From: Alteromonas naphthalenivorans
Lineage (GTDB): Bacteria; Pseudomonadota; Gammaproteobacteria; Enterobacterales; Alteromonadaceae
Assembly (NCBI RefSeq): GCF_000213655.1
Contig: NC_015554.1
Span: forward strand, 2,294,001 to 2,358,000
Length of the DNA stretch: 64,000 nt
Direction: 5' to 3'
In this document: positions 8,840 to 30,895 of the stretch, in pieces
How the letters are laid out: every line of letters starts with the position of its first letter
Position numbering within the stretch: the first letter of the stretch is position 1
Position numbers and translations under genes: made by a program
Notes under the pieces: generated by a model
Told to the model about the DNA's origin: nothing
Databases searched by the model: none
What the model saw: the letters and a program-made list of their open reading frames with translations, nothing else

Positions 8840-10926
8840 TCAAAAAATTACTGATTGCTAATCGCGGCGAAATTGCATGCCGAGTGATGCGTACAGCCAA
8901 AGCCATGGGTATTCAAACGGTGGCGGTTTATTCAGACGCTGATGCAAATGCCTTACACGTTTTACAGGCGGATGAAGCGGTTTATTTAGGCCCTGCCCCC
9001 TCGAAAGATAGCTACTTGCGCGGAACTGCAATTATTGAATACGCCAAAAAGCTTGGTGTAGATGCCATCCATCCTGGGTATGGTTTTTTATCTGAGAATG
9101 CCGAATTTGCTAAAGCATGTGCCGCGCACGATATTATATTTGTGGGCCCACCTGCGTCTGCCATAGAAGCCATGGGATCTAAATCTGCGGCCAAGAAAAT
9201 TATGGAAGATGCCGGCGTGCCTTTGGTGCCAGGTTATCACGGAGATGATCAAGATGAGGCTACCTTAAAGCAAGCCAGTGATGCAATGGGCTATCCTGTG
9301 TTGCTTAAAGCTGCTGCCGGCGGCGGCGGTAAAGGCATGCGTCAGGTGTGGAAAGAAAGCGAGTTTTCGGCGGCGCTAAGTGCAGCAAAAAGAGAGTCGA
9401 TGGCAAGCTTTGGCGATGAACATATGTTGGTTGAAAAATACCTCACCCGGCCGCGCCATGTTGAGATACAAGTTTTCTGTGACACCCATGGTAATGGCGT
9501 GTATCTATTTGAACGTGACTGTTCAGTGCAGCGTCGTCATCAAAAAGTGATAGAAGAAGCACCTGCCCCTAATTTTCCTGCCAATATTCGGCAGCAAATG
9601 GGCGAAGCGGCCCTTCAAGCAGCAAAAGCGATTAATTATGTAGGTGCGGGAACCGTTGAGTTTTTGTATGACGAAGACGGCTCGTTCTATTTCATGGAGA
9701 TGAATACCCGCTTGCAAGTAGAGCACCCTGTTACGGAAATGATTACCGGTGAAGACTTGGTTCGCTGGCAGCTTGATGTAGCAGAAGGAAAAACCCTGCC
9801 CAAGACCCAATCAGAATTAACGCTAACGGGACACGCATTCGAAGCGCGTATTTACGCCGAAGATCCAAACAATGATTTTCTGCCCGCCAGCGGCACGCTC
9901 TCGCTTATCAAGACACCCATGCTATCAAGCCCGACGTCCTATCAAAATAGCCAGTCGCTAAACAAGACACCCACGTTATTTAGCCAAGGATCAACAAGTA
10001 AAGTCCGTATCGATACCGGCGTGCAGCAAGGTGACGACATTAGCGTTTATTACGACCCGATGATATCTAAACTCGTTGTATGGGGTGAGAACAGAGAAGC
10101 TGCTTTAAAACAATTAGTTAGTGCACTTAAGCAATATCACCTTGACGGCGTAACCACGAATATTGATTTTCTTATCGACGTGGCTTCAAGTGCGCCTTTC
10201 ATTAGCGCTGAATTAACCACAACTTTTATTGATAAACATACTGACACCCTGTTCAACAATCAGAGTCAATCAGTTGATGCTGAGCTTCCCGCAATAGCAC
10301 TTTTGTCTGTACTTTCACGTAATCAAAGTACAGCGAAGAGTAATTCACTGCCCTCACCTTGGGGGATTGTTGGCTCGTGGCGCCCCAACATGGGATATCA
10401 AGAATCCCTTTCGATTATGATGGGTGATGAAGTTCATTCACTCACAATAAGACATATCGCCCAATCAGGTAATAGCCTGAATCAAAAAGGTATTTCCCTT
10501 GAGGTAATCACGGATACGGAAAGCATTGAAGCAACTGGTCATCTTGCTGGTGATGAATTAATTGCCTCTGTAGATGGAGTAAGACGGACATACCATTTCT
10601 CGAACAACGAAGGTCAATTTGGCTTATTTAGTCAAGACTCAACCTGCAATTTTAAGGTCTTAGCACCTGATATGGGGGATGACGACAACCACAGTGGTGC
10701 AAGCTTAGATGCACCAATGAATGGTACCGTGGTGGCTCACTTAGTTGAGGTTGGTAGTAGCGTCAAAAAAGGTGCACCGCTACTTATTATGGAGGCCATG
10801 AAGATGGAACATAGTATTACAGCGCCTTGCGACGGTGTGGTGCAAGGCTATTATTATCAACCTGGTGAGTTGGTAGATGGAGGCTCAGTGCTAATTGATT
10901 TCGATTCTGAGTCAGAAGTTGAATGA
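8836..10926 (+). CDS. liuD: Methylcrotonyl-CoA carboxylase, biotin carboxylase (alpha) subunit with repeat-derived insertion
   Basis: 696 aa from ATG 8836, which follows an AGGAGA site and overlaps the liuC stop; a GTG at 8818 is unlikely. Biotin carboxylase domain ([16 protein letters not shown], about 1-450; ATP-grasp glycine loop [24 protein letters not shown]) and a C-terminal biotinyl domain (EAMKMEH, about residue 660). It is the biotin-carrying partner of LiuB. Between GTLSLIKTP and VRIDTGV there are about 25 residues that are normally absent (region 9905-10005). Two GACACCCA repeats (9912 and 9966, 54 bp apart) lie there and read Lys-Thr-Pro in frame. The insert is in a loop, so the enzyme is probably still active. 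Confidence 0.93.
9905..9980 (+). repeat. Two GACACCCA repeats inside liuD
   Basis: Cores at 9912-9919 and 9966-9973, in contexts ATCAAGACACCCATG and AACAAGACACCCACG. Spacing is 54 bp (18 codons), both in the same orientation and reading frame. The encoded stretch interrupts a biotin-carboxylase motif pair that is normally nearly adjacent. Confidence 0.75.
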
Positions 10927-11885
10927 GTGTGGAAACCGCTATGAAGACACCCATCGTAAATTCACCCTCTAACCCTGCGACTCACTTTCCCTCTAAAGTG
11001 AGGATCGTGGAAGTTGGTGCTCGTGACGGGTTGCAAAATGAAAAGGCGATTCTTAGCGCTAAAGACAAAATACATCTCATCAATTTGCTTAGCGCAAGTG
11101 GTTTAAAGCGTATTGAAGCTGGCAGCTTTGTTTCTCCCAAGTGGGTTCCTCAGATGGCAGATTCTGACGCAGTTTTCAATGGAATTAGCCGTTCCAATGA
11201 TGTTATCTATTCAGCCCTGACCCCTAACCTAAAAGGGTTTGAAGCTGCGCTGTCTGTTGGCGTTGATGAAGTTGCTATATTTGGCGCGGCTTCTGAATCT
11301 TTTTCTCAAAAAAATATTAACTGCTCAATCAGTGAAAGCCTAAAAAGATTCGAGCCCGTTATTGCGGCCGCAAACACGCATAATATCCCAGTTAGGGGCT
11401 ACGTATCTTGTGTGATGGGCTGCCCTTATGAAGGAGAAATATCTAGCGACTCGGTAGCGCAGGTTTCCAAGGGTCTACATGATATGGGCTGCTATGAAAT
11501 TTCACTTGGCGACACCATTGGAACCGGCACTCCAGCATCTACTGCTCGTTTGCTCGAAAACGTTTGCCACCACGTACCAGTTGCCGACTTAGCTGTCCAC
11601 TTTCATGACACCTATGGCCAAGCATTAGTCAATATCTACACCGCGCTACAATTTGGTATATCGAGCATAGATAGCGCTGTCGCAGGCCTTGGGGGCTGCC
11701 CATATGCTAAAGGCGCCAGCGGAAACGTGGCGACAGAAGACGTTCTGTATATGCTAAATGGACTTGGAATTGAAAGTGGCGTAAGTATGGATAAGTTGCT
11801 TGTTGCCACTGAATTTATCTCTTCTGTATTAAACAGAAAACCAGTGTCTAAGGTAGCTAATGCATTGCTTGCCAAGGTAAATTAG
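10923..11885 (+). CDS. liuE: Hydroxymethylglutaryl-CoA lyase with repeat-derived N-terminal extension
   Basis: 320 aa TIM-barrel lyase. It has [14 protein letters not shown], the Cys-containing signature [12 protein letters not shown], and the metal-binding HFHDTYGQ. It splits HMG-CoA into acetyl-CoA and acetoacetate, the last step of leucine degradation. It overlaps liuD by ATGA. The core normally begins only a few residues before RIVEVG; here about 20 extra residues precede it. They include Lys-Thr-Pro encoded by a GACACCCA repeat (10946-10953) just after an alternative ATG at 10941. Whether ATG 10923 or 10941 is used is not decidable here. Confidence 0.92.
10940..10962 (+). repeat. GACACCCA repeat at the 5' end of liuE
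   Basis: Context ATGAAGACACCCATCGTAAA matches the family consensus. It lies in frame, in the N-terminal extension of LiuE, with the same Lys-Thr-Pro reading frame as the two liuD copies. Confidence 0.7.
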
Positions 11886-11910
11886 ATTCACTTCCTTCGG
11901 CATTTAGCGC

Positions 11911-12024
11911 AACCAAGACATCCATTGTAAAATAAAGGGTCAATTCAATAGTACTATCAAGACACCCTTAGTAAAGTACTATCAAGACACCCTTAGTAAA
12001 GGTCAGCTAACCGGACACCCACGA
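11911..12024 (+). repeat. GACACCC repeat cluster between liuE and the RAYT gene, with a 25-bp perfect tandem
   Basis: Degenerate copy GACATCCA (11917), two perfect contiguous 25-bp units (11951-11975 and 11976-12000, each containing ATCAAGACACCC) and an exact core at 12014-12021. All are plus-oriented, like the copies in liuD and liuE. They lie in the 232-bp gap between liuE and the transposase gene. Confidence 0.8.
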
Positions 12025-12117
12025 TAATACAAAGAATCAATTCGATTAATTCACACCTAAGATACAGGTTCATCAATTGCAATTGATTGCTAGCATGGAC
12101 GTATATGAATTTACTGG

Positions 12118-13107
12118 ATGTTAGCCGTGCCGCAATCAAGACGCAGCCAAATCAGCCTTGCTGATACTCCTTATTATCACTGCGTTTCACGCTGCGTTAG
12201 GCAATGCTACCTATGCGGTGTTGATCAGAATTCGGGAAAAAGCTTCGAACATCGAAGAGGCTGGGTCGAGCGCCGCTTATTAGAGTTAGCTTCGGTGTAC
12301 TCCATTAATATTTGTGCTTATGCGGTGATGAGCAATCACGTTCATGTAGTCCTGCATGTTGATAAACAAGGTGCCAATTCATGGAATCTAGAGCAAGTTC
12401 TAACCCAATGGCACCGTATCCATAAAGGCACTCTACTTACCCAAAGGTATCTTAAGGGTGAGCGCCTCTCGGAAGCCGAATTACAAACAGTAACCGATAC
12501 TGCTGAAGTTTACCGCCAGCGCCTGTACGACATTAGTTGGTTTATGCGAAACCTTAATGAGTTCATCGCTAGGGCAGCTAATAAAGAGGATGAGTGTACA
12601 GGACGATTTTGGGAAGGAAGGTTTAAATCCCAAGCTTTATTAAATGAAAGCGCCCTACTTTCCTGTATGGCTTACGTGGACTTAAATCCGGTTAGAGCTA
12701 ATATAGCGACAACGCCTGAAAATTCTAGGTACACCAGTATTCACTCACGAATACAGGCAATGAAGTGCAATTCGAATACTTCTGAATTACTACCGTTCAC
12801 AGGAGAGTGTGAACAACACGACTCCAAACTATTATCCGTTGGCCTACCCGACTACCTTGAACTCGTCGATACAATGGGAAGAATCATTCGTGACGACAAA
12901 CCAGGTTACATAAATAGCAATTACGCCCCGATATTGTCTAGATTAGGGATAAAACAGATGCATTGGCAGACGCTTACCACTAGCTTCGAAAAGTTATTTA
13001 GTTATGCGGCTGGGTGTGAAGTTACAATGAGAAAGTTTAAGCAAAATACCAATAGGCAGCGAGTAAGGGGAATAAAGAACGCAAAATTGCTTTCCCACGC
13101 AAGTTAG
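12118..13107 (+). CDS. REP-associated tyrosine transposase (RAYT, Y1/HUH family)
   Basis: 329 aa. The N-terminus has the Cys-rich start of this RAYT subfamily (YHCVSRCVRQCYLCG). The HUH motif is HVH at residues 74-76 (AYAVMSNHVHVVLH). The C-terminal family blocks are TGRFWEGRFKSQALL and YVDLNPVRA. RAYTs are single-copy, domesticated relatives of IS200 transposases that act on REP sequences in single-stranded DNA. Flanking GACACCC repeats on both sides support a link, by inference. In the helix expected to carry the catalytic Tyr the sequence is LNEFIAR (Phe149); the nearest Tyr residues are 132 and 137. The start has only a weak ribosome site; GTG 12127 is an alternative. Confidence 0.85.
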   Translation: MLAVPQSRRSQISLADTPYYHCVSRCVRQCYLCGVDQNSGKSFEHRRGWVERRLLELASVYSINICAYAVMSNHVHVVLHVDKQGANSWNLEQVLTQWHRIHKGTLLTQRYLKGERLSEAELQTVTDTAEVYRQRLYDISWFMRNLNEFIARAANKEDECTGRFWEGRFKSQALLNESALLSCMAYVDLNPVRANIATTPENSRYTSIHSRIQAMKCNSNTSELLPFTGECEQHDSKLLSVGLPDYLELVDTMGRIIRDDKPGYINSNYAPILSRLGIKQMHWQTLTTSFEKLFSYAAGCEVTMRKFKQNTNRQRVRGIKNAKLLSHAS

Positions 13108-13330
13108 TTACTGTCTTCTGTTCGTAAATATGAGCTAAATTGATAAAAGTCTCCCTTTTTGACTCTCCAACCCATTAACGTTAAAGGTTAATTTGTAGCC
13201 CTACCTTAGTGGTAACACTACGTCCTTACTAACCTTTTTTAAACTGTCTAAATAAGCACATCACATCCATAAATAATCGCCGAGTCAAATACTTGGGCCT
13301 TTTTAAACTTCTGCTCGGCTAATAAAACTA
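13108..13330. other. Non-coding stretch downstream of the RAYT gene
   Basis: AT-rich, with no open frame of interest and no clear terminator. It leads into the repeat cluster from 13331. Confidence 0.5.
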
Positions 13331-13553
13331 ACGAGACACCCACTGTATTTCCTTGAGCAGGAATGAGATTAAAAACCTTCATTAGGGTGGATGTCCTCAT
13401 ATCTTTTATATTTTCACCACAAATCCTAGTTAAATGTAAACTTGGGTGTCTTCGTAAAATTAAGTAGTCTTATAAGCTAAGGTTTCCCTGATAACCTTCT
13501 TAAGATGGGTGTCCTGTTAGCTCTCTGATAGCGTTATTAAGTTGGGTGTCTTG
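13331..13553. repeat. Inverted cluster of GACACCCA repeats right of the RAYT gene
   Basis: Plus core at 13335-13342 (AACGAGACACCCA). Then minus-oriented copies: degenerate GGATGTCC near 13389, exact TGGGTGTC at 13443, 13506 and 13543. Polarity flips between 13342 and 13389, so plus and minus copies can pair as an imperfect hairpin. The cluster lies between convergent genes (RAYT and the GGDEF-EAL gene). Confidence 0.8.
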
Positions 13554-13596
13554 ATAACTCTCTTGATAACTCTTATAACGTCTGAGAATTCTTAAT

Positions 13597-16230
13597 CTAA
13601 GCAGGTTCTCGATTACCACTTAATGCCAACCAAGACTCATTAGCTTTCCAGGTCGTTAGCCATTGTGAAACTTGATTAGCTGGCATAGGCTTAGCAATGC
13701 CATAGCCTTGCGCTAACACACATCCCAAGTGGATAAGCGCAACGCCGTGTTCAACTGACTCTACGCCTTCCGCAATCACTTCTCGTTTAAATGCTTTTGC
13801 TAATCCCACAACACCTTCAACAATCGCTAAGTCATCGGTGTCATCTAACATGTCTCGTACAAAGCTTTGGTCAATTTTGATTAAGTAAGCTGGCAAACGT
13901 TTAAGGTAAGTAAGTGATGAGTAACCAGTACCAAAGTCATCTAAAGCAAAGCTAACCCCTAAATCGTGACACGCATTCATTGTTGATGATACTTGAAAGG
14001 TATCTTGAAGCGCGCTGGTTTCCAAAATTTCCAGCTCTAAATAGCCTGGGTCTACGTCGGGGTGCGCCGCTAAAAGTGTTTGTAACCGAGAAGTAAAGTT
14101 GTCTTGCTGCAGTTGATGTGCACTAATATTCACACTTACGGGCAATGAAATACCGCGTCTCTGCCAATGCGAAATTTGTGTTAAAGCCGCATCAATAACC
14201 CACTCTCCTACTTTCAAGCTGATACCATGTCCTTCAATAACTGGCAAAAATTCGAGCGGTGGAATCAAGCCGCTTTCAGGGTGCTCCCAGCGGAGCAAAG
14301 CTTCTACACCAATCACTTCACCAGAGCGCATATTCACCTTAGGTTGGTAGTGTAAGACAAACTCTTTGCGATCCAACGCAACCCGAACATTATCAATGCT
14401 CTTGTTATAGGAATTAATCGCGTTATCTTGCTCTAAATCGAACTGATGATATCGGTTTTTCCCCCCCTGCTTTGCAACATACATGGCTTGGTCTGCGTGG
14501 CGTATCAACTGATCCGCATCTACGTTATCTTGAGGGAAAACAGTCACGCCAATACTGGCCGACACTTGCATAACCGCCTCAGCAATATTGACGGGGGCCG
14601 ACGCAGATTTAAGAAGTCGATTTAGAACATGCTCACAGTCACTAAACTCATCCAAATTAGCCATAATAATAATGAATTCGTCACCGCCAATACGTGCAAT
14701 TGTATCTCCTGCTCTCAAGCTAGCTTTTAAGCCATTGGAGACTTCAACCAAAAACTGATCACCAATGTCGTGTCCGTAATTATCATTAATCGCTTTAAAA
14801 CCATCTAAATCCATAAATGCGACGGCCAGTGAATTTTGTTGTAGCTGACTGTGCTTAATGGCTTGATTAAGTCGCTTGGCAAGCAACACTCTGTTAGGTA
14901 AGTTGGTCAGCAGATCATAATGCGCTATTCGTTCTAACTTACCTTCATTGAGCTTAATTTCGGATATGTCGGTTGAGAGTGATACATAGTGTTGCACCTG
15001 CCCTTCCGCGTCTTTGACCGCACTAATTGTGACCATCTCAGGATAAACTTCACCATCCTTACGACAGTTCCAAATCTCACCTCTCCAGTGCCCATCGGTG
15101 TTCAACGTATTCCACATGTTTTTATAAAACTGCGCGCTGTGTCGTCCAGACTGAAGAATTCTAGGGTTCTTCCCTAGCACTTCCGATTTGCTGTAACCGG
15201 TGATTCGGCACAACGTATCGTTCACTTCAATAATAGTCGCTGAGGCGTCGGTTATGATAATTCCTTCGTTCGCATGAGTGAAAACGCTAGCAGCACGCTT
15301 TAGTGTCTCTTCGGAACGATTCTTTTCGATAGCGATACTCGCTAAACTTGCAGTTTGCTCAATTAGCGCAAGATCAGTATCCGAGGGATTATTAATACTA
15401 GAGTGATAAATAGCAAAAGTACCGAGCACAGCGCCTTGCGTAGAACGAATTGGTTCAGACCAACAAGCTCCTAAATTAGCGCGTTCAGCTAACGCTTTGA
15501 AATTTTCCCAGTAAGGGTGTGTTTGAATATCTGCCACGATGACACGTTCGTTAGTAAACGCCGCTGTACCGCAAGAACCCACGCCCATACCTATCTCTAC
15601 ACCATCAATAGCATCGGTATAAAATTTAGGAAGACTAGTTCCAGTTCCGTTGCGCAGATGCCCCCCTGAATCCTCAAGGATCAAGATGCTGCACATCATT
15701 TCTGGGTTATTAAGCTCAACCACGCTGACAATGGCGTCTAGCACCTTTTTTAGAGGTTCTCCGCTGGTAATGAGTTCTAATACCTCGCTACGCGTTGTTT
15801 CTCTTAACTCGTTCTGCCTGCGTTTAGTAACGTCTCGGATAACACCAACAATAAATCGTCTATTATTGCGGTCGATAAATCGGCTCAGTTTAGCAAGTAC
15901 TACCCGTGCCTGGTTGCCCTTACCTTGCAGGGCTTGCTCTATGACTTTATCTTCTCCGGTATCTAAAACATACTGATCGCTGTGCGCTAACTTCACCAAT
16001 TCTTGTGGGTAAATTTTATTTGAGAAGGTTTTTCCAATGAGTTTTTTTCGAGAAACGTTTACAAGCTCACAAAAGGCGTTGTTAGCAACTAAAAGTTTAC
16101 CCTCCCCGTCTTTTATAAATACAGGGTCAGCTGATATATCCAAAAACGCATTAAGATAACCCTCTAATTCCTCGGGATCTTTTACTGGCAATGCTGCCGG
16201 GCCATTGTTTTCTTGCTGTTTATAAGACAT
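13597..16230 (-). CDS. PAS-GAF-PAS-GGDEF-EAL bifunctional c-di-GMP protein
   Basis: 877 aa from ATG 16230; a TTG four codons upstream is the alternative. Order: PAS (about 25-140), GAF (about 150-300), PAS with PAC (about 305-430), GGDEF (about 440-600, intact RIGGDEF), EAL (about 615-870, intact GVEALLRWEHP, DDFGTGYSSLTYL and EGVES). There is no membrane segment, so it is probably a cytoplasmic sensor. Both catalytic sites look complete, so it may make and degrade c-di-GMP. It is isolated, with repeats at its 3' side. Confidence 0.9.
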   Translation of the reverse strand: MSYKQQENNGPAALPVKDPEELEGYLNAFLDISADPVFIKDGEGKLLVANNAFCELVNVSRKKLIGKTFSNKIYPQELVKLAHSDQYVLDTGEDKVIEQALQGKGNQARVVLAKLSRFIDRNNRRFIVGVIRDVTKRRQNELRETTRSEVLELITSGEPLKKVLDAIVSVVELNNPEMMCSILILEDSGGHLRNGTGTSLPKFYTDAIDGVEIGMGVGSCGTAAFTNERVIVADIQTHPYWENFKALAERANLGACWSEPIRSTQGAVLGTFAIYHSSINNPSDTDLALIEQTASLASIAIEKNRSEETLKRAASVFTHANEGIIITDASATIIEVNDTLCRITGYSKSEVLGKNPRILQSGRHSAQFYKNMWNTLNTDGHWRGEIWNCRKDGEVYPEMVTISAVKDAEGQVQHYVSLSTDISEIKLNEGKLERIAHYDLLTNLPNRVLLAKRLNQAIKHSQLQQNSLAVAFMDLDGFKAINDNYGHDIGDQFLVEVSNGLKASLRAGDTIARIGGDEFIIIMANLDEFSDCEHVLNRLLKSASAPVNIAEAVMQVSASIGVTVFPQDNVDADQLIRHADQAMYVAKQGGKNRYHQFDLEQDNAINSYNKSIDNVRVALDRKEFVLHYQPKVNMRSGEVIGVEALLRWEHPESGLIPPLEFLPVIEGHGISLKVGEWVIDAALTQISHWQRRGISLPVSVNISAHQLQQDNFTSRLQTLLAAHPDVDPGYLELEILETSALQDTFQVSSTMNACHDLGVSFALDDFGTGYSSLTYLKRLPAYLIKIDQSFVRDMLDDTDDLAIVEGVVGLAKAFKREVIAEGVESVEHGVALIHLGCVLAQGYGIAKPMPANQVSQWLTTWKANESWLALSGNREPA

Positions 16231-16345
16231 ATGTGAAACCAAACTTGATTACTAAAGCCACGTTCGCCCAATATCGACTGATATATAAATTGGGTTTCAG
16301 AAATGCAATCACGGTAATTTGCACGGCGTTCGACCTCCTATTCCC

Positions 16346-17506: not shown

Positions 17507-17699
17507 GTCCTTTCCTAAGGTAATTTCACGAAATCACAAATGCGACTACTCAGCAAGCGTACCAAAATCAATTTTAGCATTACTTAAAGAACTTTATACT
17601 AAAAACCCTTGATACTTGATCATGCTGCGTTTATGGGCACTATATCGTACTAACACACTGAACAATCTTAACAATTAGGCCAATTTAGAACTAAAAGCT
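17507..17699. other. Upstream region of the MFS gene
   Basis: Non-coding, AT-rich, presumably containing the MFS promoter. No operator was recognised. Confidence 0.4.
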
Positions 17700-17918
17700 T
17701 ATCGAGACACCCATTATAAACTGACTGACCCACTAATTTGTTCAAGTACGATCGCGAGGGTTCCATCAGAGTTTTACATTATATTTTAAACACTATCATG
17801 GGTGTCTCGTTAACGCTTTTAAGACGACCAAAGCATGGGTGTCTCGTTAACGCTTTTAAGACGACCAAAGCATGGGTGTCTTCATAACGATGTATTGTTT
17901 CTAAACGTGGGTGTCTCG
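17700..17918. repeat. Inverted GACACCCA cluster with 37-bp tandem repeat
   Basis: Plus core at 17706 (CGAGACACCCAT) faces minus cores at 17799, 17836, 17873 and 17908. The first minus copy gives a perfect 12-bp inverted match to the plus copy. Units 17797-17833 and 17834-17870 are identical 37-bp tandems, and a third starts at 17871 and diverges after about 10 bases. Confidence 0.82.
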
Positions 17919-17956
17919 ATAACGCCATCTCTATAACGCCAATAACATCAGCTAGC

Positions 17957-17990
17957 AGCACTAGAAAATCCATTTGGATTTCTAGTGCTG
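17957..17990. terminator. Hairpin distal to the SRPBCC terminator
   Basis: 15-16 bp stem (CAGCACTAGAAAATCC / GGATTTCTAGTGCTG, one bulge) with a 3-base loop. It is probably a second or back-up terminator for minus-strand transcription. It has no good T-run of its own. Confidence 0.45.
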
Positions 17991-17995
17991 AAAAC

Positions 17996-18046
17996 GAAAA
18001 AAGCCGAGTTCGCTTTGGAAAATATCCATATAAGCGAACTCGGCTT
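17996..18046 (-). terminator. Rho-independent terminator after the SRPBCC gene
   Basis: Perfect 15-bp stem (AAGCCGAGTTCGCTT at 18001-18015 with its complement at 18032-18046). On the minus strand it is followed by TTTTCGTTTT. It lies 58 bp past the SRPBCC stop. Confidence 0.85.
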
Positions 18047-18104
18047 AGTCTGTAGTGAAAACCATTTGGCGCTTTTGCGCTAAGGTAAAAGCTAGACTAA
18101 ATTA

Positions 18105-18638: not shown

Positions 18639-18682
18639 CTAAAACTCCATGATAATCACATAGGATTAGAAATATATAACAA

Positions 18683-21151: not shown

Positions 21152-21154
21152 AAG

Positions 21155-21958: not shown

Positions 21959-22024
21959 TGAAATACTCCTTCACGAAAAGCGGTACTAAAGCTATACGTA
22001 CCGATAGCAAAGCGGGAAAAGTAA

Positions 22025-22042
22025 GGGCTGGTAAACCAGCCC
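22025..22042 (-). terminator. Hairpin downstream of the MFS gene
   Basis: 7-bp GC-rich stem GGGCTGG / CCAGCCC with a 4-base loop. It is followed on the minus strand by a moderately T-rich stretch (TTACTTTTC). Confidence 0.6.
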
Positions 22043-22080
22043 TCAATTAAAACAACATGTTATTTATGAAGAAGATAGTA

Positions 22081-23400
22081 CTACAGCCCTCTCGACTCTG
22101 CCATCTCCCAATCTTTAACAATTTTAGTACTGGTCCATAAGAACACGATAATAGAAAGCGCATAAGGCACAATCAAATACAGTAAAGATTGACGAAGCGC
22201 TTCAACTTCACCCAACGACGGCACTAACGCTTGGCTTATAATACCGGTAATCGTTGGCCCCCCGCCCAATGCAATTATATTCAGCACAAAGAAAAACAAT
22301 GCAGTAGACATAGCGCGAACATTGATAGGTGCAAGGGTTTGCGCCATGGCAAAGCTTGGGCCTAAATAGGAACCACTGGTGAAGAGTAAGAACGTCATTA
22401 AGCCTACTGACAACCATAAGTCGTTAACTTGAAGCGAAAAATACAACGCTGGTACGCCAATGATTAGCGCAATAGCAGGTAGCAACGCATACGCTTTCTT
22501 GTTTTGCTTACCCCATCTATCGGCAATATAACCACCCAGCCATACGCCTATCGCATAAGCAGAGCCATTGATAATACCGAACGCAATAAGCAACTGCGTT
22601 ATATCTAGCCCTGCAAAGGCACGTACATAATAATCGATGATCCATGTTGAAATGGCGTAGTTACCGAACGAACCAAAAGAAATGCCTAACGCCATTCCCC
22701 ACCACGTTGGAATCTTCAATAAAGTTTTGAGTGAAGCTGAAACACTGGGCTTTTCAGCGTCATCGGTTTGTACTGACTCGGTGCGTTTTGGCTCTTTTAC
22801 CGTAAACTTGAGTAGTAGCGCTAGTATTACGCCTGGTAACCCCACACTAATCATTACGGTGCGCCAATCAGCGGAACCGCCTTGTAAGAAGAATGCAGAA
22901 GCAAAGAATGCCAACATCACGCCAAACGGAATACCCAATGAGTACACTGCCAATGCGCCAGCACGTTTTTCTTTAGGAAATAGGTCGGAAATAATACTGT
23001 GTGATGGTGGGCTACCACCTGCTTCACCAATGCCCACACCTATTCTAGCCAGCGCCAGTTGGGTGTAGTTCATGGCAAGCCCAGAAGCAGCGGTAAATCC
23101 ACTCCATAGGGTGAGCGAGATAGCAATGATATTCACGCGACTATAACGATCGGCAAGCCACGCAATAGGAATGCCCACCACGGTATAAAGAATGGCGAAA
23201 TATACCCCCTTTAATAACCCTAACTGCGCGTCATCTAAACCCAAATCAGCTTTAATGAATGGAGAAAGGATACCTATGATCTGTCTATCAATAAAATTAA
23301 ATGCGTAAACCAGCGTTAGTATCACTAACACATAATTTCTGTAGGCGCGGGACGTATCCGCTTTCTCTACTGGTGCCGTTTGAACCTGACTATGGGCCAT
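22081..23400 (-). CDS. MFS transporter, spinster-like subfamily
   Basis: 439 aa, 12 predicted membrane segments. The family opening YAFNFIDRQIIGILSPFIKA, then WLADRYSR and GIGEAGGSPPSHSIISD, matches spinster-type MFS carriers. The substrate is unknown. AAAGGGAATGAT ribosome site. Monocistronic, with a terminator hairpin 40 bp downstream. Confidence 0.85.
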   Translation of the reverse strand: MAHSQVQTAPVEKADTSRAYRNYVLVILTLVYAFNFIDRQIIGILSPFIKADLGLDDAQLGLLKGVYFAILYTVVGIPIAWLADRYSRVNIIAISLTLWSGFTAASGLAMNYTQLALARIGVGIGEAGGSPPSHSIISDLFPKEKRAGALAVYSLGIPFGVMLAFFASAFFLQGGSADWRTVMISVGLPGVILALLLKFTVKEPKRTESVQTDDAEKPSVSASLKTLLKIPTWWGMALGISFGSFGNYAISTWIIDYYVRAFAGLDITQLLIAFGIINGSAYAIGVWLGGYIADRWGKQNKKAYALLPAIALIIGVPALYFSLQVNDLWLSVGLMTFLLFTSGSYLGPSFAMAQTLAPINVRAMSTALFFFVLNIIALGGGPTITGIISQALVPSLGEVEALRQSLLYLIVPYALSIIVFLWTSTKIVKDWEMAESRGL

Positions 23401-23570
23401 ATCATTCCCTTTAAATTCAATGAAAACTCAGTCTACGCGGCAGGTTAAAAGATTGACAACTTATTGTTACTTATTTGTAAATATAAAAAGGAATGTTAGC
23501 CTAGGCTTTCTGTTAGCTTGAGCTTAAGGTAGGATATTGGCACCCTTACTCATCAGACCAGACAAACACC

Positions 23571-24386
23571 ATGACGGTAGACGAGCTTTTAACTCTTTCT
23601 TCATTAGAGGCACTTTCTGAAAATCAGTGGAAAGTAGATAACCTCATTATTCCCAGTAATTGGGCGCAAGGGCGTACAGCATTCGGCGGTATTTCAGCAG
23701 GCATGGCGTACAGCGCTATTCGTCAAAAAGTCAGTGAAGAACGCGTGCTGCGTTCATTTACCACTAACTTTGTAGGTCCACTTTCACCAGATACGCCATT
23801 TTCAATTGAAGTAACCTTGTTGCGTGAGGGCAAAAACGTTTCTCAATATACCGCTCATGCGAAGCAAAACGGAAAAAGCTGTGTGTTCGTGCAAGCCTGC
23901 TTTGGTATTGGCAGAAAATCAGGCATTAAAGTAGAAAACCAAGACACCCATGACATGCCGGTGCCCACCAAAGGCAAGTTCATACCGCAAATTCCAAAGG
24001 TTACCCCTAAGTTTTTGCGTCATTTCGATTTAGCCATCGATAAGGGAGGCATTCCCTTCACCCGCAAAAAGACCAGCGTTTACCACGGGCACATGCGTTT
24101 TAAAAAGCCACCCGCGAAGATCACAGATGCACACATCATTACCATGATTGATGCTTGGCCGCCCACGCTGTTACAAATGATGAAGTTGCCTGCCCCAGCA
24201 AGTACCGTTAGTTGGAATTTAGAATTTATCCACCCGCATAAGCAGGTAGACCCTACAGACTGGTTTGCTTACCAAGCGCATACCCGTCAGGCAGAAGATG
24301 GCTATGGGCATACTGAAGCCACTATTTGGGATAAAGACAACGAAGTTGTTGCCATAAGTCGCCAGACCGTGGCAATTTTTGATTAG
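23571..24386 (+). CDS. TesB-like acyl-CoA thioesterase family protein
   Basis: 271 aa double-hotdog protein. FGGISAGMAYSAI near residue 43 and the C-terminal SWNLEFIHPHKQV..WFAYQAHTRQAEDGYGHTEATIW (in part) match the TesB-like family. It probably hydrolyses acyl-CoA esters. A GACACCCATG core at 23943-23952 lies in the linker and reads Gln-Asp-Thr-His; it may be a decayed family repeat or chance. Confidence 0.78.
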   Translation: MTVDELLTLSSLEALSENQWKVDNLIIPSNWAQGRTAFGGISAGMAYSAIRQKVSEERVLRSFTTNFVGPLSPDTPFSIEVTLLREGKNVSQYTAHAKQNGKSCVFVQACFGIGRKSGIKVENQDTHDMPVPTKGKFIPQIPKVTPKFLRHFDLAIDKGGIPFTRKKTSVYHGHMRFKKPPAKITDAHIITMIDAWPPTLLQMMKLPAPASTVSWNLEFIHPHKQVDPTDWFAYQAHTRQAEDGYGHTEATIWDKDNEVVAISRQTVAIFD

Positions 24387-24443
24387 TTAGAACGTAATTT
24401 TTGAACGAGATGCTTGTCTAGAAAGGCATTAATAGTAGATAGT

Positions 24444-24480
24444 AAAAAGGGGCGTACTGCATAAATGAGTACGCCCTTTT
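24444..24480. terminator. Bidirectional terminator between thioesterase and HDOD genes
   Basis: Stem AAAAGGGGCGTACT / AGTACGCCCTTTT with one bulge and a 9-base loop, A/T runs on both sides, between convergent genes. Confidence 0.85.
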
Positions 24481-24482
24481 CG

Positions 24483-25328
24483 TTAATAAAGCATAAACGC
24501 GTTAGGGTTGAACAGGGAAATAACTGAAATACACTGCAAGTTGGTAATATCCAATGCATCTTCTAAATCGTCGCGATTAAGCGATAGGCTCTCGTGCAAT
24601 TCAGGTTTTAAGTTATTGTAGCTAGGATAAATTTCTGAATTCACGTTATCTAAAGCCAAAACGTATGACAACTGCAAGATTTGCTCTTCCACATCAGAAG
24701 TGGTGTTTTTGTCGCCGTGTATATTTGCAATAGGCTTATAGATTGTTTCAGGGATACCCCACTCTTTGATGATCCCCGCAGACACGTTCGTAAATGTGTA
24801 GCCCAAAACACCAGCTTGTAATTCAGCAGGACTAACTCTTGCGTTGAACGCCTGACAACGTTTCGCGCTATCTGGCAACATGTCTACGACCACCAGCTCA
24901 CCAATATTATGCAGTAAGCCCGCAACAAATAAGCGTTCCGGCTCTCTGATATTTCGCATTTCAGCAAAATACTTTGCTAACAGACCGCAAGAGACACTTT
25001 GCTCCCAAAATTTATCTAAGTCGATAACTTGGCCATCTATTTCTTTGAACGCTTGGCTAACACCAAATGCAAGTGCTAGATCGTACGTAGAGCGCGTACC
25101 CACTACTTGTAGCGCTTTAGTAATAGTATCTATTTTATTTGGAAAACGGTACAAGGCCGAATTCGCCACTCTTAATAGCTGTGTCGCTAACGAAGGGTCA
25201 AAAGAGATGATGTCTGCAATATCGTCAATATTAGATGCTCCATCATCCATGCACGCTTTTAAACGCGTTACCGAGTCGGGCAGCACAAACAACGTACTCG
25301 CGTTACTGATAATATCTTGTAGGGTCAT
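24483..25328 (-). CDS. HDOD-domain protein
   Basis: 281 aa, one HDOD domain over about residues 15-215 (DPSLATQLLRVANSALYRF; FVAGLLHNIGEL). It carries HN in place of a metal-binding HD pair, as is common in HDOD proteins, so it is probably a signalling scaffold and not an enzyme. Monocistronic. Confidence 0.85.
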   Translation of the reverse strand: MTLQDIISNASTLFVLPDSVTRLKACMDDGASNIDDIADIISFDPSLATQLLRVANSALYRFPNKIDTITKALQVVGTRSTYDLALAFGVSQAFKEIDGQVIDLDKFWEQSVSCGLLAKYFAEMRNIREPERLFVAGLLHNIGELVVVDMLPDSAKRCQAFNARVSPAELQAGVLGYTFTNVSAGIIKEWGIPETIYKPIANIHGDKNTTSDVEEQILQLSYVLALDNVNSEIYPSYNNLKPELHESLSLNRDDLEDALDITNLQCISVISLFNPNAFMLY

Positions 25329-25652
25329 TTAGGTGTACGCTCCTGATATAACCTACTCTATTTAGAAGAGGGTATCTCGCAATCAAGTCTTAAAATAAAA
25401 CGGTAACTATAAAACATGATTAGCTTTTTCACTACTAGCTACATTATAGCGCGATTATTTAGCCTAGCTAATTAGAATTCATTATCTTTCGTATAGTATG
25501 CGATAAATTACATTACATTTTATTCAGTCCCAATAGGGGTTCCCCCTTAAAAGCAGAAGGTTTTAAGCACTTTTATTCGCGATAGAGTTTCATTTTCTTT
25601 ATTTCCTGCTGTGCTACTATTTCGCGCTTTACACATTTAAGCACAGGTAATC
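25329..25652. other. Intergenic region between divergent HDOD and glycosyltransferase genes
   Basis: 324 bp, AT-rich, no repeat of the GACACCCA family, no open frame and no operator recognised. It must hold both promoters. Confidence 0.5.
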
Positions 25653-27032
25653 ATGTTACAAGGCATGTCACAAGGCATAATGCAGGTTGTAGTCATTGGC
25701 TACGTGTGGCCTGAACCCAATTCCTCCGCCGCAGGTCAAAATATGCTGGCCTTAATTAATCAGTTTCTAAGCTACGGCCATAACGTTACTTTTATGACCG
25801 CGGCAACAGACAGTATTCATAAAACAGACCTAGATAATATAGGTGTAAGTAGTGAAGCAGTTGCACTTAATTGCAGCAGCTTTAATGAACGAATTGAGAA
25901 ACTGTCGCCTAACGTGGTTATTTTCGACAGATATATGACCGAAGAGCAATTTTCTTGGCGAGTAAAAGACGCCTGTCCTTCTGCTATCCGCATTTTAAAC
26001 ACCGAAGACCTGCACAGTTTACGACAAGCTAGGCACGATGCCGTTAAAGCACACGATAATGCACTGCGGGCATCCAAAGAAACTGCAGCCTCTCCTGTTG
26101 TGGCGCACATTGCCAACGCCGCGAAAGAGGCTGACTACAATACGCCTTTAGCCCAGCGGGAAATTGCTGCTATTTTACGCTGCGACCTTACGTTGGTCAT
26201 TTCTCGCACAGAGTACGCACTGCTTACCGATTATTACCACGTTCCCGCAAAACAGCTTTATTACCATCCGCTTAATCTCGCGACGGTAACTGACAAGGCT
26301 CCAGATTTTGAAAAACGCACCGACATTGTCACTATTGGCAATTTTCGACATGCGCCAAATTGGGATGCCGTCTTGCAGCTAAAGCAAACCGTTTGGCCTG
26401 CTATTAGAAAGGTGCTCCCTCAAGCAAATTTACATATTTATGGGGCCTACCCACCTAAAAAGGCAACGCAATTACATAACCCCAAAACTGGATTTTACGT
26501 AGATGGCTGGGCTGAAAATGCACACGATGTGATTGCTAACGCTAAGCTTCTTATAGCGCCGCTGCGCTTTGGTGCAGGTATTAAAGGCAAAATACTAGAA
26601 GCTATGCGATGTGGTACCCCTACCCTTACAACCTGGGTTGGCGCTGAAGGTATTGCTGAAGAAATGTCCCCCATAACACCATTCGCGGTAAGTTCTTCGT
26701 TGAAGAGTACAGAAGCAACAGAGAATAGTGCTACGCAGCCTGCATGGGGAGGCGCAATTTGCGATACCGCAGAAGACTTCGCGAAGCACGCCGCTAGGCT
26801 TTACAACAGCGAAGAGAGTTGGTCGTTAGCAAGTAAATTAGGGTTAACCTTGTATCACGGTTTTGAAAATGACAGCGAGAGTGAAACCTTGGCAGAACGA
26901 GTTGCCATTATAGCTTCAGATGTAAATGACCATCGCAAGACCTTGTTTTTACAAGGGCTGCTATGGCATCAAACCTTGAATGCGAGTAAATACATGTCGC
27001 AGTGGATTGAAGCTAAAAACCAAAACTTATAG
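25653..27032 (+). CDS. GT4-type glycosyltransferase
   Basis: 459 aa. GT-B fold: N-terminal VIGYVWPEPNSSAAGQNM, C-terminal nucleotide-sugar site with the FGAGIKGKILEAMRCGTP block (about residues 305-325). Acceptor and sugar unknown. Possible starts are 25653, 25665 and 25680; the last has ACAAGG six bases upstream and begins directly at the fold. Stop overlaps the convergent sufE-like gene by six bases. Confidence 0.8.
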   Translation: MLQGMSQGIMQVVVIGYVWPEPNSSAAGQNMLALINQFLSYGHNVTFMTAATDSIHKTDLDNIGVSSEAVALNCSSFNERIEKLSPNVVIFDRYMTEEQFSWRVKDACPSAIRILNTEDLHSLRQARHDAVKAHDNALRASKETAASPVVAHIANAAKEADYNTPLAQREIAAILRCDLTLVISRTEYALLTDYYHVPAKQLYYHPLNLATVTDKAPDFEKRTDIVTIGNFRHAPNWDAVLQLKQTVWPAIRKVLPQANLHIYGAYPPKKATQLHNPKTGFYVDGWAENAHDVIANAKLLIAPLRFGAGIKGKILEAMRCGTPTLTTWVGAEGIAEEMSPITPFAVSSSLKSTEATENSATQPAWGGAICDTAEDFAKHAARLYNSEESWSLASKLGLTLYHGFENDSESETLAERVAIIASDVNDHRKTLFLQGLLWHQTLNASKYMSQWIEAKNQNL

Positions 27033-27431
27033 CGTATTTAAGCGGCGCAATACACTTAAGATACCATTGCCTCTAGATTGGCTTAAATGGCGCTGCAAAT
27101 TACACGCGTTCATGTATTGCTCAAAATCGTACGCCTTTCTTTGTTCATCTGAAAGGCTATTTGCTTTTTCTAGTAGTACCGCCAGTACACCTCGAATAAT
27201 TTTGCTGGGTGAATAGGCTGCAATAACAAGGTCGCTCGAGGGCTGTGAAGGTGTGCACGCTACCCACACTTTACTTTCACAACCCGGTACCAATGAGTCT
27301 TCTGTGCGTGCCGACTCAGGTAAAGTCAACAACTGCTTGCCAGCCAGCATTATGGCGCGAGTGGCGCCATCCCAGCCTTTAGCCGTAGCCACGGTTTGCC
27401 CCAAAGGCAACAATTGGGTAGATTCTGTCAT
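27027..27431 (-). CDS. SufE-family sulfur acceptor
   Basis: 134 aa. Active-site Cys51 in LVPGCESKVWV matches the SufE/CsdE signature. These proteins accept persulfide sulfur from a cysteine desulfurase for Fe-S assembly. No desulfurase is adjacent, so SufE versus CsdE cannot be decided. Confidence 0.82.
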   Translation of the reverse strand: MTESTQLLPLGQTVATAKGWDGATRAIMLAGKQLLTLPESARTEDSLVPGCESKVWVACTPSQPSSDLVIAAYSPSKIIRGVLAVLLEKANSLSDEQRKAYDFEQYMNACNLQRHLSQSRGNGILSVLRRLNTL

Positions 27432-27491
27432 CGTTATGAGGTTACAGCGTGGTTGTTCATATCAACGTTTTCAGAAAACTGAGCCCAACAG

Positions 27492-27896
27492 CTAGGCACT
27501 AGCATCTGCACTAAATTCTGCGCTTAACTCTTCTGCCGTCATCACTAAATTTTCAGCATCGGCAGAGGTAGGAAACATAACCAATTCCACCCCATTTTTA
27601 GTTAAACCAGGTAACCACGTTTCGGTAAACTCATCAAATGGCACTGCCACACATGTACCTGTAATTTGATTTTCGTCCAACCACGCCTGCGCTAAGTTAT
27701 TGTGAGGAAAAACGGGTAGTCGAGTGATGTCGTTGTCTTCCAGCATGACAAAGCCTTCTGTACCTTGGATTAGCCAAATTTCTTTCGCTTTGGGTACGTA
27801 GCTGATCACTAGCATTTGTCGGTCTTCAGCAGACAAATTTTTAGCTTGCGCTAGCACAGTATCATTCAGGGTGGCTGTTACAGTATCTGGAAACAC
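27492..27896 (-). CDS. DUF2750-like protein
   Basis: 134 aa, no signal peptide or membrane segment. The segment LPVFPHNNLAQAWL...VPFDEFTETWLPGL...VELVMFPT matches my memory of the DUF2750 pattern; function unknown. It lies 60 bp upstream of the sufE-like gene on the same strand and is possibly co-transcribed. Confidence 0.65.
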   Translation of the reverse strand: MFPDTVTATLNDTVLAQAKNLSAEDRQMLVISYVPKAKEIWLIQGTEGFVMLEDNDITRLPVFPHNNLAQAWLDENQITGTCVAVPFDEFTETWLPGLTKNGVELVMFPTSADAENLVMTAEELSAEFSADASA

Positions 27897-28176
27897 AAAA
27901 AATTACCTTATATTTAAGAGGCGCCGATAAGAGGCGCTAAGTATACCCTTTGCAAGCTTCTCCGCCAAATAGCAAAGCCTCTTTAATCTTGTAAATTCAA
28001 GTTGAAAACATTCCCTACGGCTAATATTATTGCGAGCAGTTTTGTGTAGTGTTGCCTAAGTCTTAAGCTGAGGGTTCAAAACGCACTCCAAATGCTTCTT
28101 GTATGTTAGCAATCTGCATTTCATGGTAGTACATTACATCTGCCTTTCTTTCAAAAAACGCAAAGCTTAAAACTTC
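27897..28176. other. Divergent intergenic region
   Basis: 280 bp between the DUF2750 gene and the heme-oxygenase-like gene. An imperfect direct repeat (AGAGGCGCC / AGAGGCGCT) lies near 27915. No operator was recognised. Confidence 0.4.
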
Positions 28177-28854
28177 ATGCAGAACTTATTTAGCGACCTA
28201 AAAGCAAAAACTTACAACAAACATGACGAGCTAGAACAAAGCACGCCTTTTGCGCTTTTTCATAATATGGTGGGGTGTAACGACAGTGAAGCTCATGAAG
28301 CTCACCGGGGAAATTACCTTAATGTGCTTTGCGTTATGCGAGAATTCCACCAACGTTGCACGTTAGTCATTAACGATGCGACTGAGAAATACCCTACTCT
28401 TCAGGCTTTAGCAAATCAGTTTGAAACCCAAGCAGTGATAACGGCGCTTAATAACGACTTAGCAGAGCTAAATTCAATCAGCGCACAATGTACTAGTGAA
28501 TTACAAAACGTTGACTTACCTAATTTTGAAACTCCACTTTCTGCTACCATTTCTGCGATGTATGTATGGTTAGGCTCATCGATGGGCGCCAATATTATTA
28601 GCCGTAGGCTTGAAAAGGCGGGGTTCGGTTTTCCTACACATTACTACCAATCCATGGCAAAACAGGCCAAAGCTTGGCCCGAATTTAAGCAAGAAGTAGT
28701 ACGTATATTACCCCTAATAATTGAAGGGCCGGATGTTGAGAACCAAAACAGTGAAACGTTAAGCGTGGCTATTATCAACGATGCGAACCTTTGGTTTGAT
28801 CATCTTATATCGCTAGGAAAAAGTACAAATTTGCCACCACAAACGTTAAGTTAA
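28177..28854 (+). CDS. Heme-oxygenase-like protein
   Basis: 225 aa, all-helical. KHDELEQSTPF near the N-terminus places a His where the proximal heme ligand sits in bacterial heme oxygenases. AMYVWLGSSMGANIISRRL resembles the distal-helix Gly-rich segment. It would open heme to biliverdin. Assignment is by pattern only; no phytochrome or iron-uptake gene is adjacent. Confidence 0.55.
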   Translation: MQNLFSDLKAKTYNKHDELEQSTPFALFHNMVGCNDSEAHEAHRGNYLNVLCVMREFHQRCTLVINDATEKYPTLQALANQFETQAVITALNNDLAELNSISAQCTSELQNVDLPNFETPLSATISAMYVWLGSSMGANIISRRLEKAGFGFPTHYYQSMAKQAKAWPEFKQEVVRILPLIIEGPDVENQNSETLSVAIINDANLWFDHLISLGKSTNLPPQTLS

Positions 28855-28903
28855 ACCCAGCATTCTGTTAATATTCATTAATTCGTTTTTTTAAGAAGTT
28901 CTT

Positions 28904-29713
28904 ATGAAAGTAATCTCATTTAATATCAATGGTATTCGTGCCCGCCTTCACCAACTTCAAGCATTAATAGATGCACATCAGCCTGACATTATTGGCCTAC
29001 AGGAAATAAAAGTTCATAACGAACAGTTTCCTGTTGAAGCAGTTGAAGCGATGGGTTACCACGTTTATTTCCATGGTCAGAAGAGCCATTACGGCGTTGC
29101 TTTTCTAGCAAAAAAAGAGCCTGAGTCTGTGCTTATGGGCTTTCCCACTGATGAAGAAGATGCGCAGCGTCGCATGATTATTTTGAAAACCACTGACAAC
29201 GACGGCCAGCCAGTAACGGTATTAAATGGTTACTTCCCACAAGGCGAAAACGAAAAGCACGAAACCAAATACCCCGCAAAACGTAAGTTCTATAAAGATT
29301 TAATGACTTATCTAGACACCCACCATACTCCAGATGAAAATGTCATTGTGATGGGCGATGTGAACATCTCTCATACCGATTTAGATATTGGCATTGGCGA
29401 AGAAAACAAAAAACGCTGGTTGCGCACGGGCAAGTGTAGCTTTTTACCCGAAGAAAGAGTGTGGTTGAACACACTAATGGATTGGGGATTTGAAGACAGC
29501 TTTAGAACCTTGAACCCTGACACTACCGACAGGTACTCGTGGTTCGATTATCGTTCAAAAGGTTTTAATGATAATCGTGGTCTTCGTATTGATCTTATTC
29601 TGGCTACCCCTTCTATGCATAAACGATTGAGTGATGCCGGAATAGACTATGAACTTCGCGGCATTGAAAAGCCGTCAGATCATGCGCCTATTTGGGCTAC
29701 TTACAGTAAATAA
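28904..29713 (+). CDS. xthA: Exodeoxyribonuclease III
   Basis: 269 aa. [20 protein letters not shown] (catalytic Glu), [24 protein letters not shown] and the final SDHAP are the exonuclease III motifs. AP endonuclease and 3'-5' exonuclease of base-excision repair. A GACACCCACC string at 29325 falls in YLDTHHT; it is probably ordinary coding sequence. Confidence 0.95.
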
Positions 29714-29745
29714 GAAATCGACAGTAGATAAATAACGGAGAGTAC

Positions 29746-30387
29746 GTGACAACGCTACAGTGGCTTGGCCTAGCTTTATATTGTTTAACCCTAGTTGGCG
29801 TTATTAAACAAATTTCTGTTGTAGGCCTAATGGGTGATAAACACCAACAGCACCTGTTGTTTGGTAGCGCTGCCGCATTGTTCGCTTTTTGGATCTTCAA
29901 AGTGGGAATTTTTGAAGGGCTAGATGTACATTTTGTAGGTTTGAGTGTGGTCACACTTATGCTCGGCTTTCGTTACGCCATTCTGGCAGGCACCCTCGCG
30001 TTATTGGGTGCTACCGCCGCTGGTTTTGCACAGTGGCACACCTTAGGTGTAAATGGCGTATTAGGGGTTATGCTGCCTGTCGCGGTAACCTACTTGGTAT
30101 ATTTAGTGTCTTTTCACCATTTACCCCGCCAGCTGTTCGTTTATATTTTTGTGTGCGCTTTCTTTCCAGGCGCACTCAGCATTGCTCTTAAAACCGGCGC
30201 ACTTGCGGGTTATTATTTTGTTGATGGCATTTATACGTGGGATGTTATTTACGATAATTTTGTACTTCTCATTCCACTTTTGGTCTTTCCAGAAGCCTTA
30301 CTCAACGGAATGGCCATCACCCTACTTGTTATCTATCAACCCACTTGGGTTTACACCTTCCACGATAAGTTTTATTTCGATAACTAA
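29746..30387 (+). CDS. Integral membrane protein, CbiM-like (energy-coupling permease family)
   Basis: 213 aa, six or so membrane segments, GTG start with a strong GGAG site. The layout, with FPGALSIALKTGAL and FPEALLNGM, fits the CbiM/COG3235-type membrane proteins. No ATPase partners are adjacent, so a transport role is inference. It lies 32 bp after xthA on the same strand. Confidence 0.6.
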   Translation: MTTLQWLGLALYCLTLVGVIKQISVVGLMGDKHQQHLLFGSAAALFAFWIFKVGIFEGLDVHFVGLSVVTLMLGFRYAILAGTLALLGATAAGFAQWHTLGVNGVLGVMLPVAVTYLVYLVSFHHLPRQLFVYIFVCAFFPGALSIALKTGALAGYYFVDGIYTWDVIYDNFVLLIPLLVFPEALLNGMAITLLVIYQPTWVYTFHDKFYFDN

Positions 30388-30399
30388 GCAATAACTAAA

Positions 30400-30630
30400 C
30401 AAGACACCCATGTTTTTCGTCTCACCATTAACGAGACACCCATCATTTGCACTCAAGTAAATTACATGGACACCCACGTTTGTAACCCGAGCGTTATGAA
30501 GACACCCACCTTTAAACCTTGATGAATTATCTGGACACCCACCCTAATTCATAAACTCCTTACGGAGACACCAACTCCTTACGGAGACACCCATGTTTTT
30601 TCAAATCCAGATTTATGAAGACACCCACGT
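30400..30630 (+). repeat. Plus-oriented half of the 30.4-30.9 kb GACACCCA cluster
   Basis: Exact cores at 30403, 30435, 30469, 30501, 30534, 30586 and 30620, plus a one-base variant at 30567. Spacing is 32-34 bp for the first five, close to the 33-bp period of the facing array. Typical contexts: AACGAGACACCCATC, ATGAAGACACCCACC, ACGGAGACACCCATG. Confidence 0.85.
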
Positions 30631-30682
30631 TTGCAGCCTTAAATATAACCAAGAGCATCCACCTTATAGTGATAAGCATAAA

Positions 30683-30895
30683 GATGGGTGTCTTGATAAT
30701 AGAATGTCGAAATAACATGGGTGTCTTGATAAGAGAATGTCGAAATAACATGGGTGTCTCGATAAGAGGGTGACGAAATAACATGGGTGTCTTGATAATA
30801 GAATGTCGAAATAACGTGGGTGTCTCAATAAATGCATTGATAAAAGCTAGGCATAAAAAAACCGCCTGGTTGGCGGTTTTAGAATGGGTGTCTTT
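30683..30895 (-). repeat. Minus-oriented half: 33-bp tandem array
   Basis: TGGGTGTC cores at 30685, 30718, 30751, 30784 and 30817 are exactly 33 bp apart in near-identical units (ATGGGTGTCTTGATAAT, then a GAATGTCGAAATAAC-type tail). A further copy at 30885 follows the terminator. The whole unit is repeated, with no unique spacers. It lies between convergent genes. Confidence 0.88.
30857..30880 (-). terminator. Rho-independent terminator of the phosphoribosyltransferase gene
   Basis: AAAACCGCC / GGCGGTTTT stem with a 5-6 base loop and a run of seven T on the minus strand, embedded in the repeat cluster. Confidence 0.85.

Follow-up and report, generated by a model that had tools for sequence, protein, structure and literature searches.

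The question raised by this locus is whether a short repeated core, GACACCCA, belongs to the RAYT-like transposase gene around which its copies cluster, and what kind of system the two form. The locus lies in a 64-kb stretch of the Alteromonas naphthalenivorans chromosome (NC_015554.1, positions 2,294,001 to 2,358,000; "the window" denotes this whole stretch). We consider it probable that the RAYT is a TnpA_Y1 protein similar to subclass 2.3, that the GACACCCA unit is its recognition end and that the unit multiplies locally near the gene. A sequence-only reading of the window had proposed a REP (repetitive extragenic palindromic)/REPIN-like system around the RAYT. The link between repeat and gene is strongly supported by paired inverted ends, matching cores, a local enrichment (halo) at many RAYTs and the near absence of units at the same locus without the gene. 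The REP label itself applies only loosely: the own-genome unit lacks both a GTAG foot and a stable hairpin, and the spread is local. Entry of units in frame into coding genes and a duplication footprint were observed in addition.

Repeat units in the window

Exact GACACCCA occurs 31 times on the two strands of the window, against a mean of 1.13 and a maximum of 6 in dinucleotide shuffles (0 of 100 reach 31), which bears out the earlier claim of a repeat far above chance. Clustered around the RAYT-like gene are 26 of the 31 copies (9912 and 9966; 10946; 12014; 13335-13550; 17706-17915; 30403-30892), while five are single (4565, 9481, 19550, 23943, 29315); the rightmost lies left of 30.9 kb. The clustered units share a consensus of about TTAWCRAGACACCCAYGTT. 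They had been described as mostly intergenic, which needs correction for three of them (9912, 9966, 10946) that lie in frame within coding sequences. The gene, its presumed ends and the other units are as follows.

12118..13107, plus strand: RAYT-like gene (TnpA_Y1, fits subclass 2.3), 329 aa, with HUH motif N73-H74-V75-H76 and Y186 in YVDLNP
11910..12034, plus strand: RAYT-upstream units, GACATCCA near 11917, GACACCCT at 11961 and 11986, and GACACCCA at 12014, the presumed left end, placed as in relatives
13328..13557, both strands: RAYT-downstream cluster with cores at 13335 (plus) and 13443, 13506 and 13543 (minus), the presumed right end and additional units
9905..9990, plus strand: two in-frame units (9912, 9966) in an MCC-alpha-like carboxylase open reading frame (ORF), peptide LIKTPM...LNKTPT
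10939..10962, plus strand: in-frame unit (10946) close to the N-terminus of the HMG-CoA lyase ORF
17699..17922, both strands: cluster with cores at 17706 (plus) and 17799, 17836, 17873 and 17908 (minus), its unit number varying by species
30396..30899, both strands: largest array, seven exact units (plus) followed by six (minus), the minus side mostly 33 bp apart
4558..4582, plus strand: possible single intergenic unit, core at 4565

In the clusters of the window, plus-strand units precede minus-strand units. Among neighbouring units at most 300 bp apart (three sets), the order plus-then-minus was found 32 times and minus-then-plus four times, next to 229 same-strand pairs. The RAYT gene's own two ends have this same polarity.

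The RAYT-like protein and its family

The residues H74, H76, Y186, N190 and P191 are invariant among 35 sequences, and the protein has both the HUH motif and the catalytic tyrosine in Y---NP that TnpA_REP/RAYT proteins require. Its fold is of the TnpA_REP kind, with the E. coli protein as the nearest. Y1_Tnp is the sole Pfam domain found, in 10 of 35 family members. By most published features the sequence fits TnpA_Y1 subclass 2.3, including its length of 329 aa, F-W165-E166, Y186VDLNP, several copies per genome and an origin in Alteromonadales. The HUH residues differ, being NHVH in the query, NHTH in the family majority and NHYH in the published subclass 2.3 table.

In the own genome (4.97 Mb), five RAYT genes of this family are complete; there are also two N-terminal fragments and a marginal match. 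Its RAYT copies share 50-59% identity with the query gene. The two fragments lie about 5 kb apart (G000:C1:584565-584741 and 589312-589476) and perhaps represent a decayed element. A RAYT match is present in 51 of 59 genus genomes. Among five species, the ratio of nonsynonymous to synonymous substitution rates (dN/dS) is 0.06-0.17 for the RAYT and 0.07-0.30 for HMG-CoA lyase, with the RAYT ORFs of G018 and G058 started at a later ATG (259 codons).

Inverted ends around RAYT genes in relatives

The best 80 RAYT matches were taken as related loci (Paraglaciecola, Aliiglaciecola, Alteromonas, Marinomonas, Colwellia, Shewanella, Pseudoalteromonas, and others); three were dropped for a short ORF, leaving 77 with a full one. 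A G[ACT]CANNCA core, whose background is 0.74 per kb per strand, was found on the plus strand 15-130 bp upstream of 68 of the 77 genes and on the minus strand 170-260 bp downstream of 63, the usual places being 65-105 bp ahead of the start codon and 180-235 bp past the stop codon. Both ends, in inverted orientation, are present at 57 of the 77 genes, across several marine genera.

The end cores vary by gene (GACACCCA, GCCACCCA, GACAGGCA, GCCAGCCA, GACAGTCA, GCCATGCA). Left and right ends nevertheless agree at position 2 and at NN in 42 of 57 genes, compared to 15.4 expected and a maximum of 27 in 10,000 shuffles; this statistic is inflated by relatedness, and rare cores also match. The core type follows the RAYT clade in a tree of 103 proteins, of which 71 carry a core label and 32 do not, and which comes with long-branch warnings.

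The same locus with and without the RAYT

The HMG-CoA lyase locus was compared in 30 genus genomes, 18 of which have a RAYT directly after the lyase gene and 12 of which have none. All 18 RAYT-bearing loci contain two to four G[AC]CACCCA cores more than 600 bp from the RAYT. In the 12 loci without it, cores are absent from ten, with one in G038 and two in G001. The hpt-like gene, about 17 kb off, is accompanied by 5-14 cores in 17 of the 18 RAYT-bearing genomes, by 0-2 in five genomes known to lack the RAYT and by 0-1 in seven genomes in which the lyase locus was unread.

Units fixed at all sites in all relatives would have told against spread by the RAYT, and this is in part what was seen: five related species do share the cluster sites of the window, but their unit numbers differ, and in other species arrays are found elsewhere. 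No clean empty counterpart of the 30.4-kb array turned up; in another clade (read at L178, L179, L186 and L189) that side of the hpt-like gene is occupied by a different gene.

Local enrichment near RAYT genes

In the own genome, 88 of 188 exact GACACCCA copies lie within 244 kb (4.9%) fetched near RAYT genes or fragments, with 9.2 expected; some of these stretches were picked because an earlier genome search had shown matches there. The repeat thus continues beyond the interval 9905..30895 to which it had been assigned. Two 20-kb stretches of the own genome far from RAYT genes contain no exact GACACCCA. There is also none in the two stretches (L047, L048) around one full own-genome RAYT, the fifth (G000:C1:2627082-2628035); the 20 kb of L047 contain seven GACACACA and five GACAGTCA.

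For a distance profile, the core type of each related locus was taken from the first 300-450 bp, and 49 of 80 loci had one of three cores. At 0.5-2, 2-5 and 5-10 kb, the density of the own core per kb is 0.23, 0.13 and 0.07 for GACACCCA-type loci, 0.27, 0.13 and 0.03 for GCCACCCA-type loci and 0.50, 0.44 and 0.10 for GACAGGCA-type loci, against at most 0.034 per kb for non-matching cores at the same distances. Outside Alteromonas, the GCCACCCA-type loci retain this fall with distance.

Genome-wide counts were made with the strict units RAGACACCCAY (CC) and RAGACAGGCAY (GG) and a reversed-pattern control. Among G001-G012, nine genomes have a listed RAYT (25 of 31 RAYT copies). In these nine, 60 of 121 CC sites (4.5 expected) and 52 of 115 GG sites (4.4 expected) fall within 25 kb of a listed RAYT; the strict sites beyond 25 kb lie elsewhere, partly by chance. 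Well-populated halos hold one core type, and RAYTs of one genome differ in their halo. In G012, one RAYT has 22 CC and no GG sites around it and another no CC and eight GG sites. In G007, one has 13 CC and one GG and another no CC and seven GG, while two neighbouring RAYTs share 13 GG and no CC.

Over the 59 genus genomes, RAYT number and unit excess correlate (Spearman 0.67), in line with the copy-number correlation that the sequence-only reading had put forward as a check. The 51 genomes with a RAYT match contain 1057 CC sites versus 388 in the control and 606 GG sites versus 88. Equal abundance of the repeat without a RAYT, which would speak against the link, was not seen for CC in the eight genomes that lack a match (39 versus 78 in the control); for the GG type, the GACAGGCA variant, the count in these eight is 40 versus 24. 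A separate observation concerns G043, which has 18 RAYT matches with 13 CC and three GG strict sites, and probably other cores.

Units in frame inside neighbouring genes

The LolC/E-like permease of the MacB/FtsX type encoded beside the hpt-like gene was readable at 24 of 30 loci and the carboxylase at 28 of 30. In 13 of the 24 a permease segment is expanded in frame, contains KTP or ETP units and measures 69-126 aa (decayed in G033); in the other 11 it is short, at 36-47 aa. Twelve of the 13 genomes with an expanded permease have a RAYT beside the HMG-CoA lyase gene, the exception being G001 with none there. Six of the 11 with a short permease make up the window's own group, where the RAYT is present and the array is intergenic instead. 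The KTP/ETP peptide arrays (L178-L191) vary in length across species.

The corresponding carboxylase segment is 33 aa long in 22 of 28 genomes. G055 has one unit there, for a length of 38 aa, and five genomes have two, for 56-60 aa. Between G047 and G046 the carboxylase gene differs by a 12-bp in-frame tandem duplication of the flank type described below. In the HMG-CoA lyase, alignment with genomes that do not belong to the window's group starts no earlier than residue 15.

Duplication footprint and unit structure

A tandem repeat of the outer flank (11 of 12 bases) was found at 37 of 129 gene ends versus one of 1270 control places. The upstream copy enters the core by exactly two bases in 11 of these 37 flanks, by fewer or by three in ten and by eleven or more in 13. 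TnpA_REP enzymes are described as cutting between C and T or between C and A (available portion of PMC8266576). On its bottom strand, the Alteromonas unit has GTGTC/TTG at the outer core edge (slash), which is a lead only.

The sequence-only reading had noted neither an internal hairpin nor a GTAG-type foot. There is indeed no such foot in the unit consensus and no strong stem, although a weak dyad rich in AT, TTANC...GNTAA, surrounds the core of the idealised unit, which folds at -1.9 kcal/mol. Covariation between the arms was absent both from 71 own-genome units (494 of 2000 shuffles as good) and from 132 units of relatives (268 of 2000), and a classical REP hairpin is therefore rejected for the own single unit, which may still contain a weak dyad. 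At gene ends of many genera the arms do covary, with 0 of 2000 shuffles as good on either side, and this gene-end dyad has on average 2.58 of 5 pairs, while slid registers reach 1.89 at most; 28 of 117 ends have at least four pairs. Strong stems, unlike anything in the Alteromonas unit, lie just inside the core at the upstream ends of L131 (-11.3 kcal/mol) and L092 (-5.6 kcal/mol), both folded as DNA.

Proposed mechanism and alternative explanations

The gene and its two inward-facing inverted ends would constitute a TIRtron-like element. Its protein would recognise the core of its own lineage, G[AC]CANNCA, and nick at or beside it. Multiplication of units close to the gene would produce the halo, which fades out across some 10-25 kb. 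Tandem duplication of outer flank plus core may account for part of this growth, by about 10-22 bp or by 20-80 bp, the latter adding a whole unit; staggered nicks with fill-in would give such duplications. We infer that the RAYT does the nicking, at the position suggested above, and moves or copies the unit itself, and that the locality is due to cis preference or to a single replication fork. Copies of the tag concentrated around the gene, even in frame in neighbouring genes, suggest an enzyme that rewrites DNA near its own gene.

The units could instead be a repeat that the host maintains, as operator sites or as a minisatellite, with the RAYT merely lying among them and arrays growing by ordinary slippage. 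The unit spacing of 33-37 bp and the tandem copies do resemble minisatellite growth, and the conserved leucine-type catabolic operon at the locus could, as a guess, have its own regulator. We regard this as unlikely, given that the same cores bracket RAYT genes at set distances in many genera, that the core changes with the RAYT clade and each halo carries the core of its RAYT, that units occur in frame within coding genes and that the locus without a RAYT loses its units. Distinctly unlikely in our view is that every cluster is what is left of a former whole RAYT element, its gene deleted and its inverted ends retained, with no independent spread of units. Such remnants would account for the shared polarity of clusters and RAYT ends, for the two RAYT fragments in the genome and for the few units that G001 retains at the locus without the gene. 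They do not fit the carboxylase, in which G055 has a single unit and five sister species have two, on the same strand, in frame and with no opposite end, nor permease arrays that range from 69 to 126 aa in frame. A classical REP/REPIN with a degenerate hairpin, in which two facing units fold as the substrate and spread genome-wide, would be in keeping with the few facing pairs about 20-40 bp apart and with the weak dyad at gene ends of several genera. The lack of a GTAG foot and of arm covariation in either unit set, and the location of about half of both site types within 25 kb of a listed RAYT, make it very unlikely.

Several observations weigh against the recognition-end interpretation. One or both ends were not found in the windows searched at 20 of the 77 genes, and the core label of the own RAYT gene was resolved as ATC through a tie. 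Neither CC nor GG occurs within 25 kb of eight RAYTs among the 25 listed in the nine genomes, 21 of the 51 RAYT-bearing genomes have at most ten CC sites, and the GACACCCA-type loci outside Alteromonas are without a clear excess beyond 5 kb (four own cores versus five of the two others). G033 has the RAYT yet zero units at the hpt locus. Related species are not independent, so that the locus counts overstate the number of events, and the cluster sites at the window locus are old and shared, so that present movement is not proven. RAYTs without CC or GG sites may be explained by other cores, as with the GACACACA and GACAGTCA of the own fifth RAYT.

As a tentative and rather doubtful extension, subclass-2.3 RAYTs could be short-range genome editors, i.e., single-strand nucleases, each specific to its lineage, that work mainly in the tens of kb around their own gene, write unit arrays by staggered-nick duplication, including the in-frame KTP/ETP arrays, and are long kept at one locus by purifying selection. 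The many natural core variants can be matched to protein variants, and single genomes with several RAYT-repeat pairs and separate halos make specificity and range directly testable. The in-frame entry into the permease and carboxylase genes is a visible effect at the protein level.

Comparison with known systems

The comparisons below refer to the available portions of the cited papers. Elements of the IS200/IS605 kind (IS608, ISDra2) share the Y1 single-strand nuclease fold; their subterminal hairpins are handled as one strand (PMC6006769). The system described here differs in its inverted ends and in having own-genome copies at 50-59% identity to the query. With REPtrons that have GTAG REPs or REPINs (TnpA_REP, 4er8; PMC8266576, PMC3116915) it has in common the Y1 fold, a repeat paired with its own transposase and inverted flanking units. 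It differs from them by the absence of a GTAG foot and of a stable stem in the own-genome unit and by its local rather than dispersed spread, 4.9% of the own genome containing 88 of the 188 exact cores; this local limit departs from the usual genome-wide spread of REPs. It works like a REP system in the pairing of gene and repeat and is not one by foot, hairpin and dispersal.

The nearest known kind is the TIRtron (or TIRYT), in which a RAYT-like gene lies between inverted repeats other than GTAG REPs; further copies of these repeats are found in the genome as dimers or in groups (Di Nocera et al., 2013; PMC3733652). A gene flanked by inverted non-GTAG repeats is likewise found here, at 57 of 77 related genes. 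The motif GGGGWSAS, stated for some terminal inverted repeats (TIRs) only (PMC3733652), contrasts with TGGGTGTC, TGGGTGGC and TGCCTGTC in the present system. TIRtron proteins mostly belong to subclass 2.1 (20 of 26; PMC6006769), whose type is about 238 aa long with a C-terminal helix-turn-helix, unlike the 329-aa protein with Y1_Tnp as its only Pfam domain. A distance-limited halo and a lineage-matched switch of the core are not part of the available description in PMC3733652.

Subclass 2.3 of TnpA_Y1 (Quentin et al., 2018; PMC6006769) agrees with the present protein in a length of about 325 aa, the WE and YVDLNP motifs, the presence of several diverged copies in a genome and its occurrence in Alteromonadales, and differs in the tabulated NHYH as opposed to NHVH (family majority NHTH). 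The available text of that paper, a survey across prokaryotes, reports no cognate REP-like sequences for this subclass, unlike the inverted end unit found here, which we propose as the missing partner sequence. No description of the GACACCCA unit was recognised in the open-licence literature, covered mostly without full text. Relative to the literature as available, the new elements are a unit cognate to a protein matching subclass 2.3, a core matched to the RAYT lineage, a local range, in-frame arrays and a footprint of flank duplication.

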